NCBI GenBank assembly: GCA_022843385.1
Contig: JALHNT010000003.1
Span: 124,001-188,000, forward strand
Length of the DNA: 64,000 nucleotides
Source: Anaerolineae bacterium
GTDB taxonomy: Bacteria; Chloroflexota; Anaerolineae; Aggregatilineales; Phototrophicaceae
Direction: 5' to 3'
The position numbers and the translations under genes are program-made. Numbering within the stretch: position 1 is the stretch's first letter; the number at the start of each line of letters is the position of its first letter. A model generated the notes under the pieces. It was not told the origin of the DNA. It ran no database searches and saw nothing but the letters and a program-made list of their open reading frames with translations. Positions 8,039 through 19,324 of this stretch are shown here, piece by piece.

Positions 8039-9952
8039 TCAGACCTGAAGGAAACGGCTGTACAACGGTTCTTTGGGTTGGTCGCTGGTGTTGACCAGGC
8101 CGTAACCGTTGTGCATCGAGTCAGCCCAACCGTACCAGATGGCGGTCATCACTTTGCCGGCGTAAAGCGTCTTCAAACGGCGCACAAAGCTGATGGCATA
8201 ATCGCTCACCCCATCTGCCGGATCATTGTTTCGATCCAGCACCCCCCACTCGGTTATCCAGATCGGCGCACCCGGCAGCACCCGACTGTAGGCATCAACA
8301 TCCTCATCGATGGCTCCGAAGGGGCTGTACATATTCCCCAACGTCCCGCGCCCATACGAGTGAACGCCGATGCCATCGGGACGAACGTTGCTGGGCATGT
8401 TCGCCAGCGCCTCACGGGCATAGGCGCTGCCGCGCGTCGGCCCGCCCACATGCCCACCGGTGATGATGCTCACCTTGCTATCAGCGCTACGGATGGCGCG
8501 GATGGCCTCGCCGAGCATAATGCCATAGACCGAGGCTGGCATGGATACGGCGGCCTCGCCGAAACCGGCTGTGTCCTGTTCATTCCAGATCTGATAGGCA
8601 GTGACCAGTTCTTTTCCGGCGAAGCGCTGGGCGATGCGGCGGCAGAAATCGCTGTATTTGCCAATCAAATCGCGCCAGCGTCCCAGATCCATGTCCGGCC
8701 AGACGTAACCCTGTCCCTCACCGAAGGTCTGGTGCGTGAAGACGACGATGACTTTCAGCCCAGCTTTGGCGTAGCGTTCGATGAATGGGGCATAGAAACG
8801 ATAGGCAGCTTCCAGGTCGGTTGAACCCCGATCCATCGATACACTGTAGGCGAAGCGCACCCACCCCAATCCCTTCAGACGCGCCGCATCCGGTTTGCCC
8901 AGGCGGTGCAGCATGTCGAGGTTGACGCCGGTCATGTTGAGTGCCTGAATTCCCTGACCATCGTCGGCCATGAGGAATTGTGAGGCGGCGAAGCCTTCTA
9001 CCGTTTGCGGCGAGCGCAGCTTGATCCACTGATTGTCCTGCCCCACTTTCAGCAACGTGCGCCCATGCGGCTCCAGCGGTTCGGCGCGGTCAAACGGCGT
9101 CAGTTGTCCGATGACTCTGAAATCTGTCCCTGGTTTCTCGCGGATGCGCAGACCGGTAACGCTGATGCGCAGCTTGAGTCCCTGCCAGTAAATCATCATG
9201 GTCGGGTCAGCCACATCGGGCAGGGGGTAACCGGTCAGTCCGCGCCCCGGTTGCTGCACAATCAGCTTGATCGAATCGAAGGCTGAACCCGACTCGCCCA
9301 CCACATCACCTACCTTAATGCTTTGCCCCATCGTCACCCGAATGTTTTGCAGCAAGCCATAGGTCACCAGGAAGGTCTGGCCGCCGAGGTTGGTGGAGAC
9401 CTGCACATACTGACCATAACCGAGGGCGGTGGGTTGGCGCACCACGCTGGCGACAATGCCGGAGGCCGAGGCGCGGATGGTAGTGCCTTGCGGCGCGAAG
9501 ATGTCAAGACCCTCGTTCGGCTTGCCATCGGCTGCCGATCTATCGTTGAAACCGCGTGTGATACGCGGCGGTCGGGCATCGGACGGCCAATCGAGGATGA
9601 AGCGATCCGAGATGTTGCCGGGGGAAATGCGTTCGCCATAACGGTCGTTTAACTGGATGCGTTGTTGCAGGATGACGCCCAGATCAGCCGGTTGAGCACA
9701 GCGGATGACATCGACGCGGACGACCATCGGATAGACGCGCCGAATGTGCGAGAGCGCATCATTATTCAGCCAGACGCCGGGTGCCTGTACGGCGGTGACA
9801 TTGCGAAAGCGGTTGAGGTCGTTGCCGGCGGGGGAGCGCACAATTGCCACCCGTTCAAATGTCCTCGAGTAAGACTCGGCGGCGCGCAGCCAGCCCATGA
9901 AATCCAATTCCGGCAAAACCAACGCATGTGAAATCGGCGGCGGTGTTGTCAT
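8039..9952 (-). CDS. Fusion of degenerate M23 domain, SH3 domain and clan-A glycoside hydrolase
   Basis: 637 residues. Order: N-terminal 110-residue region of unknown fold; an M23/LytM-like domain (about 125-230); an SH3 domain (about 260-325, RIREKPGTDFRVIGQL); and a TIM-barrel glycosidase (about 335-637) with acid/base E458 in WNEQD and nucleophile E568 in ITEWG, as in GH5/GH39-type enzymes. In the M23 domain the metal ligands are gone: H.G.D is EGLD, the Y.H motif is TYGLL and the final H.H is S.K, so it should not bind zinc and may only bind glycan. There is no signal peptide. The ATG at 9952 is used because GGAGG lies 7 bases before it; the TTG at 9958 is too close. Monocistronic and divergent from the cyclase pair. 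Confidence 0.85.
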   Translation of the reverse strand: MTTPPPISHALVLPELDFMGWLRAAESYSRTFERVAIVRSPAGNDLNRFRNVTAVQAPGVWLNNDALSHIRRVYPMVVRVDVIRCAQPADLGVILQQRIQLNDRYGERISPGNISDRFILDWPSDARPPRITRGFNDRSAADGKPNEGLDIFAPQGTTIRASASGIVASVVRQPTALGYGQYVQVSTNLGGQTFLVTYGLLQNIRVTMGQSIKVGDVVGESGSAFDSIKLIVQQPGRGLTGYPLPDVADPTMMIYWQGLKLRISVTGLRIREKPGTDFRVIGQLTPFDRAEPLEPHGRTLLKVGQDNQWIKLRSPQTVEGFAASQFLMADDGQGIQALNMTGVNLDMLHRLGKPDAARLKGLGWVRFAYSVSMDRGSTDLEAAYRFYAPFIERYAKAGLKVIVVFTHQTFGEGQGYVWPDMDLGRWRDLIGKYSDFCRRIAQRFAGKELVTAYQIWNEQDTAGFGEAAVSMPASVYGIMLGEAIRAIRSADSKVSIITGGHVGGPTRGSAYAREALANMPSNVRPDGIGVHSYGRGTLGNMYSPFGAIDEDVDAYSRVLPGAPIWITEWGVLDRNNDPADGVSDYAISFVRRLKTLYAGKVMTAIWYGWADSMHNGYGLVNTSDQPKEPLYSRFLQV

Positions 9953-10098
9953 CCACAAACCTCCAACAAACCTTGACGGATCGAATCCGTGTGTATTGTA
10001 CGGTTTTCATAGGCGACACACCACCTGTATCCCGTACTATGCCACAGCAGAATATGAAAAACGTGCAAATTTGTCGCCATTCGGCGCTGGAACAGGTG

Positions 10099-10104: not shown

Positions 10105-10140
10105 GGCGGGTATGTTTTCATCTACCTGGAGGATTGGGCG

Positions 10141-11904
10141 TTGATACCCGACCCCACCAAAAGTTACAACCTGAATAATCCAACGGCTGACATTCTGAAG
10201 CTGCGGACACTGTTGAAAGAGGTCGCGGCTTCGCTTCAGAGCCAGCAGCAAATCTTGCAAATGCGCGGGATGAGTCTGCCACCGGGTGCGCCGCAAAACC
10301 TCGAAGCCATCGACAAGGACCTGACGATTCTGGAAAAGGCGTTGGGAAGCGAAGAGACCGAGCTGGCACAGCTTCGGGCGCTGGCTGACACCTCAGCTAT
10401 GATTAACTCGGCGCTGGACCTGGATACAGTATTCGCCCGCGCCATTGATGAAGTCATCCGGCTGACTGGCGCGGAACGGGGATACATTGTGCTGATTGAC
10501 CCGGACAACCAGGAGCTGGTTTTCCGCGTCGCCCGCGATGTCGATGTAACCCAGTCGGGTCAGATTACTTTCCAGGGCAGCCGGACGGTGCTGAACGAGG
10601 TACTATCCACTGGACAGCCCTTGTTGACTGACAATGCCTACAAAGACCCGCGCTTTCAGGATCGCATTACCGTATCGCAGCACCAGTTCCGCTCGGTCAT
10701 CTGTGCGCCACTCAATTATCGCGAACGGGTGATCGGCGCGGTCTATGTCGATAACCGGTTGCTGGCCGGTATTTTCACTGAGCGTGAGCGGGATATTCTG
10801 ACAGCTTTCGCTAACCAGATGGCCGTCGCCATCGAGAATGCGCGTCTGTTCAAGCGGGTTCAGGCGAACTTGGCCGAGATCACCGAATTGAGCGAAGTGA
10901 TGTCGAATGTCTTCGGCTCAATCGGCAGTGGCGTCATTACCACGGATGCCACCGAAACGGTGCAGACCTTTAATCCGGCGGCAGCGGCCATCCTGGAAAT
11001 CGAGCCGGAGCAGGCGTTGGGGCGTCCGATTGATCGGGTTCTGCCAGAACTGAGCGATGAGTATCTGGACTCGGTGCGGGTGGATGACCAGCGCCAGATG
11101 TATGAAACCGAACTGCGCGGCCAGGCAGCTAACAAAGCGTTGCGTGTGAACCTGACCCCCTTGAAAGATGCCAACAATCAGCAGACTCAGGGCGTAGCGG
11201 TGGTGGTCGATGATCTGACACAGCAGCGCGCACGCGATCAGAAACTGAACATTCTCAACCGCTATCTGCCACCCGGTTTGGTCAAGAACATCGATCAGAT
11301 TTCCGGACTGGCGCTGGGTGGTGAACGGCGCGAGCTGACCTGCATGTATGTTGATGTGCGCGGCTTTGCCACCTTCCCGCCGGACTTACGCCCGCGCGAA
11401 GTGATGGAATTCCTCAATGAGTATTTCTCCGTCGCTGCGCGCTGCATCAACGACACCGAGGGTGTCATCGACAAGTACATGGGGACTGAGGTGATGGTGT
11501 TGTATAACACCCAGTTGAATCCCCAACCGGATCACTCGGCGCGGGCGATTGAAGCGGCACTGCTGATGCGGGAAGCCTATGCCGAACTCTATGCGCGGCA
11601 GGGCATTCAGCCGGAGTTCCCCTATTATCGCATCGGCGTTCACACCGGCATCGCCACGACGGGCAACGTCGGCAGCGTCAACCGCCGTGACTTCACCGCG
11701 CTGGGTGACACCATCAATCTGGCGCACCGGCTGCTGGAGAATGCTGGCATGGGGCAGGTCATCGTCAGCGAGGAATGCTGCCAGCACGCGAAGACGGTTC
11801 TGGGTGGGTTGCCGTCTGAGATTTATCTGGAAGCGCGGAACCCGATTAAAGCCAAGGGCCGCGAGCAATGGACGACTGTCTACGAGGTGTTTAGAAACTC
11901 ATGA
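10141..11904 (+). CDS. GAF-PAS class III nucleotidyl cyclase homolog, nucleotide-half type (C2-like)
   Basis: 587 residues: coiled-coil N-terminus with motif LQMRGMSLPPGAP, GAF (about 84-235), PAS (about 250-360), class III cyclase domain (about 395-587). First metal Asp D405 (YVDVRGF) is present, but the second metal Asp is Thr (T449, KYMGTEV). Adenine-site K445, class IIIb Thr T519 and transition-state N526 and R530 (NLAHR) are kept. Alone it should not bind both metals. A TTG start follows GGAGG by 8 bases and TATAAT by 36 bases; the open frame upstream overlaps the divergent gene. The stop overlaps the next start by 4 bases (ATGA). GAF and PAS imply control by a small ligand or redox signal. 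Probable cytoplasmic cAMP or cGMP synthesis together with the next protein. Confidence 0.9.
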   Translation: MIPDPTKSYNLNNPTADILKLRTLLKEVAASLQSQQQILQMRGMSLPPGAPQNLEAIDKDLTILEKALGSEETELAQLRALADTSAMINSALDLDTVFARAIDEVIRLTGAERGYIVLIDPDNQELVFRVARDVDVTQSGQITFQGSRTVLNEVLSTGQPLLTDNAYKDPRFQDRITVSQHQFRSVICAPLNYRERVIGAVYVDNRLLAGIFTERERDILTAFANQMAVAIENARLFKRVQANLAEITELSEVMSNVFGSIGSGVITTDATETVQTFNPAAAAILEIEPEQALGRPIDRVLPELSDEYLDSVRVDDQRQMYETELRGQAANKALRVNLTPLKDANNQQTQGVAVVVDDLTQQRARDQKLNILNRYLPPGLVKNIDQISGLALGGERRELTCMYVDVRGFATFPPDLRPREVMEFLNEYFSVAARCINDTEGVIDKYMGTEVMVLYNTQLNPQPDHSARAIEAALLMREAYAELYARQGIQPEFPYYRIGVHTGIATTGNVGSVNRRDFTALGDTINLAHRLLENAGMGQVIVSEECCQHAKTVLGGLPSEIYLEARNPIKAKGREQWTTVYEVFRNS

Positions 11905-13697
11905 TGAACGATGCCACAACGGATCGCTTCCGCGCTGCGCGCCAGAATGCTCAGGAGACGATGCGCCATCTGATCCAGCGCACCACTGAGACGATTGACC
12001 TGCTCCGTACCCAACGCGATATGCTGCGCCAACGGGGGATGAATCTACCAGCCAACTCGCTGGATACGCTGAAGTCGATGAAGAGTGGGCTGGAAAAGCT
12101 CAACAACAACATCACCAGTTCGCTGGTTGAACTTAAGCAACTTCGTGAACTGGTCAACACGGCCTCGGTCATCAACTCGTCGCTCGATACCCAGGATGTA
12201 CTCGATCAGGTGATGGATACTGTCGTCCGCATCACTGGTGCTGAACGTGGCTATATTGCCCTCATCAATCGTGAGACGGGTGAGATGGAATACCCGGTAC
12301 GGCGCGGCATTGACCAGGATCAGATGCAGGGCGATTTAGTGGTCAGCAGCACGGTGGTCAAGAAAGTGGTGCAGACCGGCGAAGGCATCCTGACCGAGAG
12401 CGCGATGGATGATGAGCGTTTTCAGGGTGCCCACAGCGTCATCAATCTCAAGCTGCGCAGCATCCTCTCAGTGCCGCTGCGGGTGCGGGAAGAGATCATC
12501 GGCGCGGTGTACTGCGATAACCGTATCCAGACTGGCCTCTTCAAACCCCATGACCTCAACTTGCTCAAGGCCTTCGGCAATCAGGCGGCTGTCGCTATCG
12601 ATAATGCACGACTGTTCGCCAGCCTCGAAACGCAGATCAAGCAGATGACCGAGACGCGCGATCTGATGACGAACATCTTCGCTTCGATTGCCAGCGGCGT
12701 CATCACCTTGAATCGTGCCGAACGAGTGACTGACTGTAATCAGGCGGCTCAGACGATCCTCAATATTTCGCGCGAGAACTTGATGAGTTGCCATTTGCTG
12801 GAGGCGTTCCCTGGCCTCGACGGCGATTTTGCTGAAGCGCTGCGTGTGGTGCGTGAAGGTGGGGAAAGCGAACTGCTGGTGCTGCAACCCGAACTGCCGG
12901 AGCTGGGACGCCGCCATTGGAACGTGGTGGTCAGCCCGCTGCGCGATGACGAAGGCGTGGTGCAGGGTGCGACCATCGTGATTGATGATCTGACCGAAAT
13001 TCACCAGCTTGAAGAGAAGCTGGGTAAAGCCGGCAATTATCTGAAGATTCGTCTGGATAACCTGCGCGATGTCAGCGATCTGGAGATGGGTGGTCAGGAG
13101 CGCGAGATCAGTGTGCTGCATTGCGATGTGCGTGGCTTCACCCGCTTCAGCGAACAGCTTGACCCGCAGCAGTTGATGGAGATCATCAATCGTTACATGA
13201 GCCTCTCCAGCGACGCCATCAATTTCTACAATGGCGTGGTCGATAAGTATATGGGTGATGCTGTGACTGGTATGTTCAACACCCAGTTCAACCCCAACGA
13301 GGATCATGCGCTGCGGGCGGTGCGCGCTGCCATGCATATGAAGCTCGATCTACTGGCGCTGCATGAAGAACTGCCTCCGACGCAGCAGTTGTTTTACGGC
13401 ATCGGCATCCACACGGGCAGTGCCGTGGTCGGCAACATCGGCGGTACGGATCGTAAGGATTTCGGTGCGCTGGGTGATGCGCCGGAGATCGCCAAGCTGC
13501 TGCAGGAAAATGCCGAAAAAGGTGAAGTCCTCATCAGTCCAGCAACCTATGAGCTGGTTCGCGATTACTATGAATGCGAGGCACTGGAACCGCGCAAGAC
13601 CAAAGGCCACGACGAACTTACTCTGATGTACCGGGTGTTGAAGCACAAGCGTCGACAGACCACTGAGATGGATACGCTCAATCTGGAAAACGTCTAA
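11901..13697 (+). CDS. GAF-PAS class III nucleotidyl cyclase homolog, metal-half type (C1-like)
   Basis: 598 residues, paralog of the preceding protein with the same order: coiled coil with LRQRGMNLPANS, GAF (about 90-238), PAS (about 250-365), cyclase domain (about 400-598). Both metal Asp are present (D409 in HCDVRGF, D453 in KYMGDAV), but the positions of the class IIIb Thr, the transition-state Asn and the Arg are G522, E529 and L533 (in FGALGDAPEIAKLL). Alone it should not complete catalysis. It overlaps the upstream gene by ATGA, so equal amounts are expected. With the first protein it would make one complete site per heterodimer; a homodimer of either would have none. Substrate choice (ATP or GTP) is likely ATP from K445 and T519 of the partner, an inference. 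Confidence 0.9.
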   Translation: MMNDATTDRFRAARQNAQETMRHLIQRTTETIDLLRTQRDMLRQRGMNLPANSLDTLKSMKSGLEKLNNNITSSLVELKQLRELVNTASVINSSLDTQDVLDQVMDTVVRITGAERGYIALINRETGEMEYPVRRGIDQDQMQGDLVVSSTVVKKVVQTGEGILTESAMDDERFQGAHSVINLKLRSILSVPLRVREEIIGAVYCDNRIQTGLFKPHDLNLLKAFGNQAAVAIDNARLFASLETQIKQMTETRDLMTNIFASIASGVITLNRAERVTDCNQAAQTILNISRENLMSCHLLEAFPGLDGDFAEALRVVREGGESELLVLQPELPELGRRHWNVVVSPLRDDEGVVQGATIVIDDLTEIHQLEEKLGKAGNYLKIRLDNLRDVSDLEMGGQEREISVLHCDVRGFTRFSEQLDPQQLMEIINRYMSLSSDAINFYNGVVDKYMGDAVTGMFNTQFNPNEDHALRAVRAAMHMKLDLLALHEELPPTQQLFYGIGIHTGSAVVGNIGGTDRKDFGALGDAPEIAKLLQENAEKGEVLISPATYELVRDYYECEALEPRKTKGHDELTLMYRVLKHKRRQTTEMDTLNLENV

Positions 13698-16096: not shown

Positions 16097-16216
16097 TTGC
16101 TTTCATGAGATTCTGTTTCAGAAATGTATCACGTTTGAAAGATGACTGCCAGCCTCATGCAGGATTGCTATTTTCCGTTACAATGGTTAGCGATGAACCA
16201 GATAAGGATGACATAC

Positions 16217-19200
16217 ATGACGATCCATCGTGTTCGGCTTGGATTGCTGGTGGGATTACTTGTCCTGCTCCTAGCGGTTCCATTTTTAGTGCTGGCACAG
16301 ACCGATGTTCAGCCCGGTGACACCATCGAAGGGCAGTTGAGCAGTGCTAATCCTACCATGCGCTATGTGTTAGTGGGAAGCGCAGGCGATCAGGTCACCC
16401 TGCGACTGACATCGACCGATTTTGATGTTTATCTGACCCTGCTGGACGCCAACAGCGTGATAGTGGCGGAGGATGACGACAGCGCTGGCGGCACTGATGC
16501 CCTCATTCAGGATTTCACATTGCCGTCCAGCGGCGAGTACACCATTCAGGTGGATAGTTACAACCTGACTTCAACCGGTGTGTTTACACTCAGCATTGAA
16601 GGCAGCCTGACGCCGCCAGAAACACCCGAAGTTACTGCTACGGCGACAGCGCAAGTAGTCATGTCTGGCTCACAAATCGCCTATGGCGACAGCATCACGG
16701 CTTCAATCACAGTGGATATGCCGGCTGGGGTCTACACCTTCAGCGGCAGCGCTGGCGACGTGGTGACGATTGAGATGACATCCGCCAGCTTCGATGCTTA
16801 TCTTGAACTGCGCGATGCCGAAGGCAATACTCTCATCGCCGATGATGACAGTGCCGGCGATTTGAACGCCCGTATTGCGAACTTCGTGCTGCCTGCCGAC
16901 GGTGACTACACCATCCGCGCTGGCAGTTTCGGCGGGGGTGTCAGTGGCAGCTTTCAACTGACGTTGACTCAGGAAGCTGGAACTCCAGCAACACCCTCTG
17001 TGCAGCCTGCCACTACCGTCCCGGTTGAGATGGGACAGTCGCTTGCTGGCGATCTCGAAAGTCCGGGCGTGCCTGCCGCCTTCAGCCTGGAAGGGCGGTC
17101 TGGCGATATTGTGAGCATCACCGTTGAATCGCTCGAATTTGATCCGCTGGTCACCTTACAGAATTCATCTGGCGCGGATATTGCCACCGATGATGACAGC
17201 GCCGGTAATTTGAACGCCCGTATCGCCAACTTCCAACTGCCGGACACCGGAACCTATCTTATCCTGGTTAGCAGCCTGTCACGCAGTGCGCGCGGCAGCT
17301 TCGTCCTTACGGTCGATCAAGGGACTGCGGCTGCCCAGCCACCGCCGACGGCAGAACCGAACATGGCCTTGGGCGACGATGCCTTGACCCCTGGGCAGAG
17401 CATCAGCGCCGTGTTGTCTCCTGATCAACCTGAAGCGCGCTTCACCTTTGCGGCGATTGCCGACCAGGAAGTGACCATCACGGCGTCGTCTGCGGTTTTC
17501 GATCCGGTGCTAACTCTCCTGGATACAGACGGGGCTGAACTGGCTGTCGATGATGATGGTGCCGGCGCTTTGAATGCTCGCATCAGCAAGTTCCGCGTGC
17601 CGGGCGATGGCATGTACACCGTCGTGGTCAGCGCGTTCAGCCCGCTGATTGCACAGTCGCCCTTCAACCTATTGTTGGAACTGGTGGATGGCAGTCTGAC
17701 CCCGACCGAAGATCCGGGGCAGGTCACCCCGGGGACAACCATCGAAGGCGAATTAACTGTCACCCAACCGGAAGCCAGCTATACTTTCGCCGGGCGCGCT
17801 GGCGATACGGTGACCATTACCGCCCGTTCCAATGCGTTTGATACCTTCCTGACGCTGCTGGGGCCGGATGGTGACATCCTCGCCAGCGATGATGATAGCG
17901 CCGGCAACCTCAATTCCCAGATTGCGAACTTCACCTTGCCGCAAGATGGCATCTACACTGCCGTTGTCAGCAGTTTTGCCCCTTCAGTGGATGGTCCGTT
18001 CACGCTCCTGATCGAGGGTGCGAGCGAGGTAGCGGTTGGCGAGCCGACGATTGAGCCGACCGCGGAACCACCAGCGGTTGGCGGGACGGATCTGGTGATT
18101 GGTCAGCCTGTCGAGGGGACATTGGATGACAGCAGTGATAGCATTGAATACACCTTCTTTGCTGAAGAAGGCCAGCCACTGACCATCAGCGCCGAGTCGG
18201 AAATCCTTGATGTCTATATCTCGGTTTTGGATGAAGATGGCAATGTCCTGGCCTATGACGATGACAGCGGAGATTATCTGAATGCGCTGATTACCGTCTT
18301 CTCTCCACCCGCAGATGGGGTTTACACCCTGTTGGTTCAGACCTATACCGATGAGAGCAGCAACTTTGAAGTTACACTGCGGGAAGCTGAGGTTGAATCG
18401 CTCAGCTACGGCGAGGGTGTGGTCGGCACAATTGACCCGGAGAATATGACATCCTATGTCTTTGAGGGCGATGCCGGTGATGTCATTGCCATCAATCTGA
18501 CTGCGCCATATGATAGCTATGTTTCGCTGCGTTATCCGGATGGCTTTCAGTTGACCAGCTCGAGCATCTATGATCGCTCAACCATCCTGGGACCGCTGGA
18601 ACTGACGACTTCTGGCACGTATGTAGTGGTGGTGTTGAATTACGATGCCGTAACCAACAGCGGCGAGTACACGTTGACACTCGATCAGGTCGAGACTGCC
18701 GAGCTGGATTACGGCGACAGCCTTGACCTGGAGTTCAATCCTGAGCAGTCGGTGTACTATGTGCAATTTGACGGCGACGTCAATGACATCATTGATGTGC
18801 GTGTTAACAGTGGTGATAGCATCGATACGCGCCTGACCCTGGTGGGGCCGGATGGCTATGTGGTGACGTCAGATGAGGACGGTGGCGCGGGTTTTGACCC
18901 CGAGCTGAACCGCTTTATCCTGGCTTTCGACGGAACCTACTTCATCATCCTGCAAGCGGTTACGCCCGGCAGCAGTGGCACCGTCTCATTTAGCCTACAA
19001 CAGCGTGAAGCAGCCACCTTGAATGATGGGCCGATTGAGGTCGTGCTGACTGAAACCGTGTATCGAAGCATTGTGACATTTGATGGTCGGGCAGGAGAAC
19101 GAGTACGGCTGACCATCGAAAACCTGTCGGCGATTGAGTCAGACAGCCCATCAGTGATGGTGATCCAGGATGACTTAACCCTGTATTCGGCTTATGGCTA

Positions 19201-19324
19201 TTACCTCGGCTCGCAGGTCATCGAGTTCGTGACCCCGTATGATGGCGAGGTGACACTAGAGATTAGTCATAACGGCTATGGACTGACCAACGTGCGGCTG
19301 AATCTGGAACGGCTTCAGGAATAA
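16217..19324 (+). CDS. Large secreted protein with nine tandem PPC-type repeats
   Basis: 1035 residues. Signal peptide (MTIHRVRLGLLVGLLVLLLA, ending near LVLAQ) followed by six clear prepeptidase C-terminal (PPC) beta-sandwich repeats, each with the acidic turn DDDSAG.LNARIANF and then LP..G.YT. Three degenerate copies follow to the C-terminus. Linkers are Thr/Pro-rich (TPPETPEVTATATAQ). There is no enzyme domain, no sorting signal and no C-terminal membrane segment. PPC domains usually accompany secreted proteases; a protein built only from them is likely an adhesin or calcium-binding surface protein. Start 16217 has AAGGA 8 bases upstream; open codons further up lack one. The signal-coding DNA shares 19 identical bases with the gene at 59321. 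Confidence 0.85.
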   Translation: MTIHRVRLGLLVGLLVLLLAVPFLVLAQTDVQPGDTIEGQLSSANPTMRYVLVGSAGDQVTLRLTSTDFDVYLTLLDANSVIVAEDDDSAGGTDALIQDFTLPSSGEYTIQVDSYNLTSTGVFTLSIEGSLTPPETPEVTATATAQVVMSGSQIAYGDSITASITVDMPAGVYTFSGSAGDVVTIEMTSASFDAYLELRDAEGNTLIADDDSAGDLNARIANFVLPADGDYTIRAGSFGGGVSGSFQLTLTQEAGTPATPSVQPATTVPVEMGQSLAGDLESPGVPAAFSLEGRSGDIVSITVESLEFDPLVTLQNSSGADIATDDDSAGNLNARIANFQLPDTGTYLILVSSLSRSARGSFVLTVDQGTAAAQPPPTAEPNMALGDDALTPGQSISAVLSPDQPEARFTFAAIADQEVTITASSAVFDPVLTLLDTDGAELAVDDDGAGALNARISKFRVPGDGMYTVVVSAFSPLIAQSPFNLLLELVDGSLTPTEDPGQVTPGTTIEGELTVTQPEASYTFAGRAGDTVTITARSNAFDTFLTLLGPDGDILASDDDSAGNLNSQIANFTLPQDGIYTAVVSSFAPSVDGPFTLLIEGASEVAVGEPTIEPTAEPPAVGGTDLVIGQPVEGTLDDSSDSIEYTFFAEEGQPLTISAESEILDVYISVLDEDGNVLAYDDDSGDYLNALITVFSPPADGVYTLLVQTYTDESSNFEVTLREAEVESLSYGEGVVGTIDPENMTSYVFEGDAGDVIAINLTAPYDSYVSLRYPDGFQLTSSSIYDRSTILGPLELTTSGTYVVVVLNYDAVTNSGEYTLTLDQVETAELDYGDSLDLEFNPEQSVYYVQFDGDVNDIIDVRVNSGDSIDTRLTLVGPDGYVVTSDEDGGAGFDPELNRFILAFDGTYFIILQAVTPGSSGTVSFSLQQREAATLNDGPIEVVLTETVYRSIVTFDGRAGERVRLTIENLSAIESDSPSVMVIQDDLTLYSAYGYYLGSQVIEFVTPYDGEVTLEISHNGYGLTNVRLNLERLQE

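Follow-up and report, generated by a model that had tools for sequence, protein, structure and literature searches.

What becomes of a class III cyclase active site when two adjoining genes encode homologues that each lack part of it? This question is raised by a gene pair in the stretch of DNA analysed here, a 64,000-nucleotide window (positions 124001-188000 of contig C3) in the 7.85 Mb genome of an Anaerolineae bacterium. Both genes lie on the plus strand: P1 (10141-11904) encodes a protein of 587 amino acids and P2 (11901-13697) one of 598, and each protein runs from N-terminal helices through a GAF and a PAS domain to a class III cyclase domain. Every site of a class III dimer is shared between the chains: one binds the metals, and the other contacts the base, ribose and phosphate. 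We propose that P1 and P2 very probably make up a class III adenylyl cyclase that is an obligate heterodimer, with one live site that makes cyclic AMP (cAMP), in which P1 would be the base/phosphate half-site subunit (C2-like) and P2 the metal half-site subunit (C1-like). Dimerisation, activity, the cAMP product and sensing are all predictions from sequence.

Active-site residues in the pair and its relatives

The catalytic (Guanylate_cyc) domains lie at 11332-11880 in P1 (PF00211, E = 2.4e-16) and at 13101-13622 in P2 (PF00211, E = 1.1e-16), both on the plus strand. With PF00211 scores of 60.3 and 61.4 bits against a curated cut-off of 21.9, the two proteins belong to the class III cyclases, and Foldseek matched the catalytic-domain fold of each. 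Alignments to the solved class III cyclases Cya2, CyaC and CyaB place their residues in the canonical positions, and when relatives are aligned P1 and P2 share the same six columns. P1 has the first metal Asp (D405), K445, T519, N526 and R530, with T449 (codon 11485-11487, plus strand) in place of the second metal Asp. P2 has both metal Asp residues (D409 and D453) and the Lys (K449), with G522, E529 and L533 at the Thr/Asp, Asn and transition-state Arg positions, respectively (L533 codon, 13497-13499, plus strand). All of these except D405 and K449 had been named in the initial annotation, and each was found where it had been placed. The six canonical catalytic residues are complete only in P1 and P2 combined; either protein alone is incomplete.

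We searched 61 genomes, the window's own and 60 from the same genus, family and order, and found relatives of P1 and P2 side by side in most of them. Genomes G017, G027 and G034 gave no match and G036 and G057 only partial matches, in several others the locus was divided or truncated at contig ends, and five genomes, all from family f2, have one copy each. When public genomes were scanned with a P1 profile (A1) and two peptide patterns free of the six residues, 129 loci were found, of which the best 80 were kept and 49 weaker ones set aside. The pair was intact in 75 of these best 80; the P2 start was cut by a contig end in four of the other five, and the fifth ends at P1. Matches entered the pair set if they spanned the catalytic domain and scored 170 or more, which excluded fragments at contig ends. 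Of the 137 loci that bore a pair, 91 distinct pairs remained after dereplication on the last 150 residues of P1, and 75 of these came from, or recurred in, the public-genome set (best 80 of 129). Upstream and downstream members were assigned from gene order alone, without use of the residues.

Every one of the 91 pairs, drawn from the window's genome and its relatives, is complementary, and always the same way round: the upstream gene lacks the second Asp and the downstream gene the Arg. P1 kept the Lys, Asn and Arg in 91/91 pairs, with Thr (89) or Ser (2) at the remaining live-site position, and P2 kept both metal Asp residues in 91/91. At the second metal position of P1, Asp was found in 0/91 (Asn in 51, Thr in 27, Ser in 10, and His, Gly or Glu in the rest), and at the transition-state position of P2, Arg was found in 0/91 (Leu in 35, Phe in 25, Tyr in 14, others in 17), so that in none of the 91 pairs does one polypeptide carry all six residues. 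The other dead-site positions were mixed: Asp (52), Glu (27) or others (12) at the first metal position of P1, and in P2 the Asn in 12, the Thr in 33, and Lys in 77 with Gln in the other 14. The complementary loss of residues is confirmed by these counts. Relatives had been expected to keep pairs with the same losses, as they do, and homologous pairs in which both proteins are complete, the case that would have spoken against this expectation, numbered 0/91.

We then counted letter changes on gene trees of 89 pairs (L128, in which both genes are broken in the assembly, and L016, with a partial P1, were excluded). At the live site, the Lys, Asn and Arg of P1 and both Asp residues of P2 never changed, and the Thr/Ser position of P1 changed twice. 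At the dead site, the first and second metal positions of P1 changed 15 and 16 times, and the Lys, Thr, Asn and Arg positions of P2 changed 1, 21, 25 and 18 times, respectively. Only 9.9% of catalytic-domain columns in P1 and 7.7% in P2 are invariant over these pairs. Because 91/91 pairs share the complementary pattern while so few columns are invariant, chance does not account for it, and live-site residues that hardly change beside dead-site residues that drift argue that selection holds one composite site.

Comparisons with eukaryotic cyclases gave a similar partition. Profiles aligned to human soluble adenylyl cyclase (sAC, ADCY10) matched best at residues 265-418 for P1s and at residues 43-211 for P2s; the former range holds Asn412/Arg416 and the latter Asp47/Asp99 of the enzyme as described in PMC4506562. 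In single-sequence searches, P1 matched the beta subunit of soluble guanylyl cyclase (sGC) at 2e-5, with no alpha subunit at 1e-3, and P2 matched alpha at 1.3e-5 and beta at 9.6e-4. Foldseek likewise placed P1 closest to the sGC B chain (beta; E = 3.4e-15 vs. 1.7e-12 for the A chain) and P2 closest to the A chain (alpha; E = 6.2e-15 vs. 9.8e-14 for the B chain).

Proposed mechanism and its alternatives

We infer the functions of residues in P1 and P2 from their homology to solved class III enzymes. The two catalytic domains would associate in the head-to-tail fashion of other class III cyclases. In the live site, D409 and D453 of P2 would bind the metals, K445 and T519 of P1 would select the base, N526 would orient the ribose and R530 would act as the transition-state Arg. 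The dead site would bring T449 of P1, in place of the second Asp, together with the Gly, Glu and Leu of P2. Since neither homodimer would have a complete site, activity should need both subunits, and a single site would take input from both GAF and both PAS domains. According to the initial annotation, the two proteins complement each other at one active site and so form a heterodimer in which one site is live and the other dead; the 91/91 pairs support that proposal.

The live site carries base-selecting residues of the ATP type in every pair (P1 Lys with Thr or Ser), as in adenylyl cyclases, which makes cAMP the likely product. In addition, 13 cNMP_binding matches in the genome are possible cAMP receptors. 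Two residues cannot fix a substrate with certainty, and a genuine heterodimer might make cyclic GMP or another cyclic nucleotide instead; we regard this as unlikely, given that guanylyl cyclases have a Glu and Cys pair at the base-selecting positions and that this pair was unseen among P1s, which have the ATP-type residues in 91/91.

It is also conceivable that P1 is a non-catalytic regulatory pseudo-cyclase and that P2 homodimers catalyse with unusual residues. P2 does keep both metal Asp residues and mostly the Lys, the solved cyclase Cya2 aligned with Gly at the Thr/Asp position, and 11/91 P2s are without the Arg alone. However, the P2 Arg is absent throughout and the Asn survives in only 12/91, after 18 and 25 changes on the tree, and a mere regulator would have no reason to keep exactly the Lys, Asn and Arg that P1 keeps in 91/91, which leaves this reading very unlikely. 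Lesions in both catalytic domains, whose activity is predicted rather than known, could also mean that neither P1 nor P2 is active and that together they serve as a scaffold of GAF-PAS sensors or as a complex that binds an effector. We consider this highly improbable: the live-site six are unchanged except for Thr/Ser, whereas five of the six dead-site equivalents change 15 to 25 times, in domains where only ~8-10% of columns are invariant. Finally, the main partners of P1 and P2 might be other cyclases of the genome instead of each other. The genome has nine Guanylate_cyc matches, and five of the seven others were read (L003 fell below threshold and a match on C16 was left out); these five have both Asp residues, the Asn and the Arg, which would allow promiscuous pairing, and differences at other positions include a gap at the Thr position in L005 and Arg for Lys in L004. 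Promiscuous pairing would fit poorly with the fixed order of adjacent P1 and P2, intact at 75 of the best 80 of 129 public loci, and with losses that are reciprocal, and we give it very little credence.

Several observations do weigh against an obligate heterodimer with one live site. The AlphaFold models are of single chains with predicted template modelling (pTM) scores of 0.36-0.38, and the heterodimer is a prediction from sequence. Dead-site decay is uneven, with the P2 Lys kept in 77/91 after one change on the tree and the first metal position of P1 still acidic (Asp or Glu) in 79/91. In the 11/91 P2s that have lost the Arg alone, a P2 homodimer might keep weak activity. The 91 pairs correspond to ~79 clusters at 90% identity, their genomes are mostly metagenome assemblies, and they are not independent events, because all descend from one duplication. 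The 4-nt overlap between P1 and P2, possible in 46/91 pairs, is not universal. In the eukaryotic comparisons, the sAC profile matches included no single stretch that passed 1e-10 alone, the P1 and P2 profiles both matched the first catalytic domain of AC8, the P1 profile matched the first domain of AC9, and the full-length sGC Foldseek matches superpose poorly (root-mean-square deviation at least 20 Å).

Origin, gene arrangement and sensor domains

How the pair arose was approached with two trees. In the first (103 proteins; 40/91 pairs and 18/28 outer homologues), 40/40 P1s formed one group (Shimodaira-Hasegawa-like approximate likelihood ratio test (SH-aLRT) support 99), 40/40 P2s formed another (98), and P1 and P2 formed a joint group (99) apart from the single-copy Chloroflexota homologues. 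The second, with the six catalytic columns removed (61 rows; 23/91 pairs and 10/28 outer homologues), again gave a P1 clade and a P2 clade, each with support of 100/99. Placement of the f2 single-copy genes with P1 or with P2 was rejected by the approximately unbiased test (p = 0.0003 and 0.0004; groups picked after the first tree). Since P1 and P2 form one group apart from the single-copy homologues, a duplication within the order is indicated, and a single tandem duplication in this order of Anaerolineae, later than the divergence from f2, would be an economical explanation of both clades. The ancestor would have been a complete, presumably homodimeric GAF-PAS cyclase, whose tandem duplication was followed by reciprocal loss. 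The two losses that all 91 pairs share, the second Asp from P1 and the Arg from P2, would have come first, and lineage-by-lineage decay later. No natural P1-P2 fusion appeared in the reading-frame lists of single-copy and pair loci, although no search was aimed at fusions.

Among 33 single-copy homologues read from the order, class and phylum, the full six residues are present in 26 (Thr or Ser counted), and the Asp, Asn and Arg residues are kept in 33/33. The other seven (L090 and L092-L097), from other families of Chloroflexota, differ only in carrying Met or Ala at the Lys position and keep the other five catalytic residues; this suggests another substrate preference or mechanism. In a phylum sample of 251 genomes, with at most five candidates scored per genome, 47 had a match at 1e-75, and two matches occurred only in the window genome and in one of the same family. 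Outside the order there were 45 matching genomes, from which 28 loci were fetched and read.

A few records call for comment. At L128 (G047:C23:257500-267000), P1 and P2 are each split into two open frames, and the readable residues are still complementary. L182 (JAHHHY010000002.1), titled Pleurocapsa minor, a cyanobacterium, is a Chloroflexota pair on a contig of 769,663 bases, and the same locus occurs in G031:C5, from the window's own family; the record is probably a mislabelled or mis-binned metagenome assembly. In both the P1 and the P2 parts of the tree, L192 (DYGW01000127.1), titled Thermoflexus sp., is a close neighbour of G038, from family f3 of the order, and the record's name may be wrong.

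The two genes are closely joined. A GGAGG at 10128-10132 (plus strand), 8 nt 5' of the TTG start of P1, is a likely ribosome-binding site; this start, at 10141, lies a few residues from the one suggested by homologues, some of which were judged by eye. An ATGA at 11901-11904 (plus strand) sets the ATG of P2, at 11901, over the TGA of P1, at 11902-11904. Across the pairs, a start codon was placed for a 4-nt overlap with the P1 stop in 46/91 and for a 1-nt overlap in 14/91, with other spacing in 31/91; these counts record a start codon present at the position, whether used or not. Such a 4-nt overlap is consistent with coupled translation, which would favour assembly of P1 with P2. The further idea, put forward in the initial annotation, that the ATGA overlap holds the two proteins at equal dose is weaker: overlaps are common but not universal, and equal dose remains a conjecture.

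Rfam had no match within the window. Among open reading frames (ORFs) of at least 130 amino acids at the 80 public loci, many of them cut by contig ends, no third family was present at more than 18, antisense shadow ORFs of P1 and P2 aside. In the window, the divergent neighbour at 8039-9958 (minus strand) joins Peptidase_M23, SH3_3 and cellulase-family (GH5) domains in a single 639-amino-acid frame, and 16142-19324 (plus strand) encodes a protein of 1060 amino acids with five matches to the bacterial pre-peptidase C-terminal (PPC) domain and no protease domain by Pfam.

The sensor halves of the two proteins are alike in layout, and the order GAF-PAS-class III cyclase, stated in the initial annotation, is also the order given by Pfam. 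In P1, the GAF domain lies at 10417-10833 (PF01590, E = 3.9e-21) and the PAS domain at 10906-11229 (PF00989/PF08448); in P2, they lie at 12186-12599 (PF01590, E = 3.2e-18) and 12681-13001 (PF08448, E = 4.4e-13), all on the plus strand. Single-chain AlphaFold models of both proteins have long N-terminal helices ahead of the GAF domain. In 16-sequence alignments, the GAF domain of P1 is as conserved as its catalytic domain (0.52 and 0.50), that of P2 is less conserved than its catalytic domain (0.52 and 0.58), and the PAS domains of P1 and P2 are less conserved (0.41 and 0.39). This conservation fits with retained sensing by both chains. Cyclic nucleotide-binding GAF domains of the NKFDE type have the motif N-K/R...F...D-E. 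A D-N-R...F pattern was found in 14/16 P1 and 13/16 P2 GAF domains, and Asp-Glu does not regularly follow it.

The dead site may have a role of its own. Position 449 of P2, which the model puts in this site, is Lys (77) or Gln (14) in the 91 pairs, with a single change on the tree, and K449 stands four residues before the metal-binding D453. In human sAC, Lys95 stands four residues before the metal Asp99 and, with Arg176, holds bicarbonate in the dead site, according to the structural description in PMC4506562; the K449-D453 spacing equals that of Lys95 and Asp99. Conservation of the P2 Lys thus hints at an sAC-like dead-site role, although a structural need would equally explain it, and a regulatory role of the dead site is a conjecture. 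We tentatively combine these strands into one picture, which could hold but as a whole is rather doubtful: an independent bacterial invention by tandem duplication without fusion, a two-input device in which four GAF and PAS domains gate one site, and a dead site that is allosteric, like the forskolin or bicarbonate site of animal enzymes.

Comparison with known cyclases

By analogy with C1/C2-type enzymes, complementary loss leaves the pair with one live and one dead site, and from its residues the pair is predicted to work like a C1/C2 cyclase. Mammalian membrane adenylyl cyclases are described as having one complete and one non-functional site, their domains complementing each other's missing residues (PMC2576301). 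In terms of mammalian C1/C2, the metal half would come from P2 and the base/phosphate half from P1; unlike the mammalian membrane enzymes, the bacterial pair has two chains, GAF and PAS domains, and no membrane domain that we found. Human sAC is soluble, with one competent site and a pseudosymmetric second one, its metals bound by Asp47/Asp99 and its catalytic residues being Asn412/Arg416 (PMC4506562). It differs from the pair in its fused chain, in the bicarbonate pocket of its second site and in having no GAF or PAS domain.

Two-gene arrangements are known among eukaryotic cyclases. sGC is a heterodimer of two gene products in which the two metal Asp residues come from alpha and a homodimer is unable to form a whole site, on the account in PMC3591389. 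The pair resembles sGC alpha/beta in its two-gene arrangement and differs from it in that sGC has H-NOX domains and uses GTP, whereas the pair has ATP-type residues. The chytrid rhodopsin-cyclase NeoR, with RGC1 or RGC2, is reported as an obligate heterodimer of two cyclase genes (PMC8815786). Unlike the pair, NeoR is eukaryotic.

Among bacterial enzymes, the nearest solved catalytic domains are those of the homodimeric CyaC, Cya2 and Pseudomonas aeruginosa CyaB, and the CyaB1/B2 type comprises GAF-PAS homodimeric cyclases. Homodimeric bacterial cyclases share the soluble sensor-cyclase layout; they have two identical sites, whereas here there are two diverged subunits, so the feature that defines such homodimers is absent from the pair. 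A 2022 review describes the class III cyclases of bacteria as homodimers and assigns the first duplication-fusion to early eukaryotes (PMC9552081). Searches of the open-access literature turned up no bacterial heterodimeric class III cyclase; a 2004 survey of actinobacterial cyclases in which the word 'heterodimer' occurs (PMC2447327) is a possible exception.

Within Bacteria, the clade offers a counterpart to the animal enzymes that includes complete single-copy relatives, pairs in which P2 has lost the Arg alone (11/91) and pairs that have diverged further. Through it one could test why a cyclase gives up one of its sites, what purpose the dead site serves and how a single site is shared by two sets of sensors, and a natural heterodimer of this kind could be used for building two-input cAMP switches. 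Separate descent from the animal enzymes is likely because P1 and P2 cluster among Chloroflexota homologues, in trees whose sequences are from Chloroflexota only. The proposed single-site heterodimer, built like animal C1/C2, sAC and sGC, likely arose separately in this phylum, and the division of labour known from animal cyclases seems to have evolved a separate time in bacteria.

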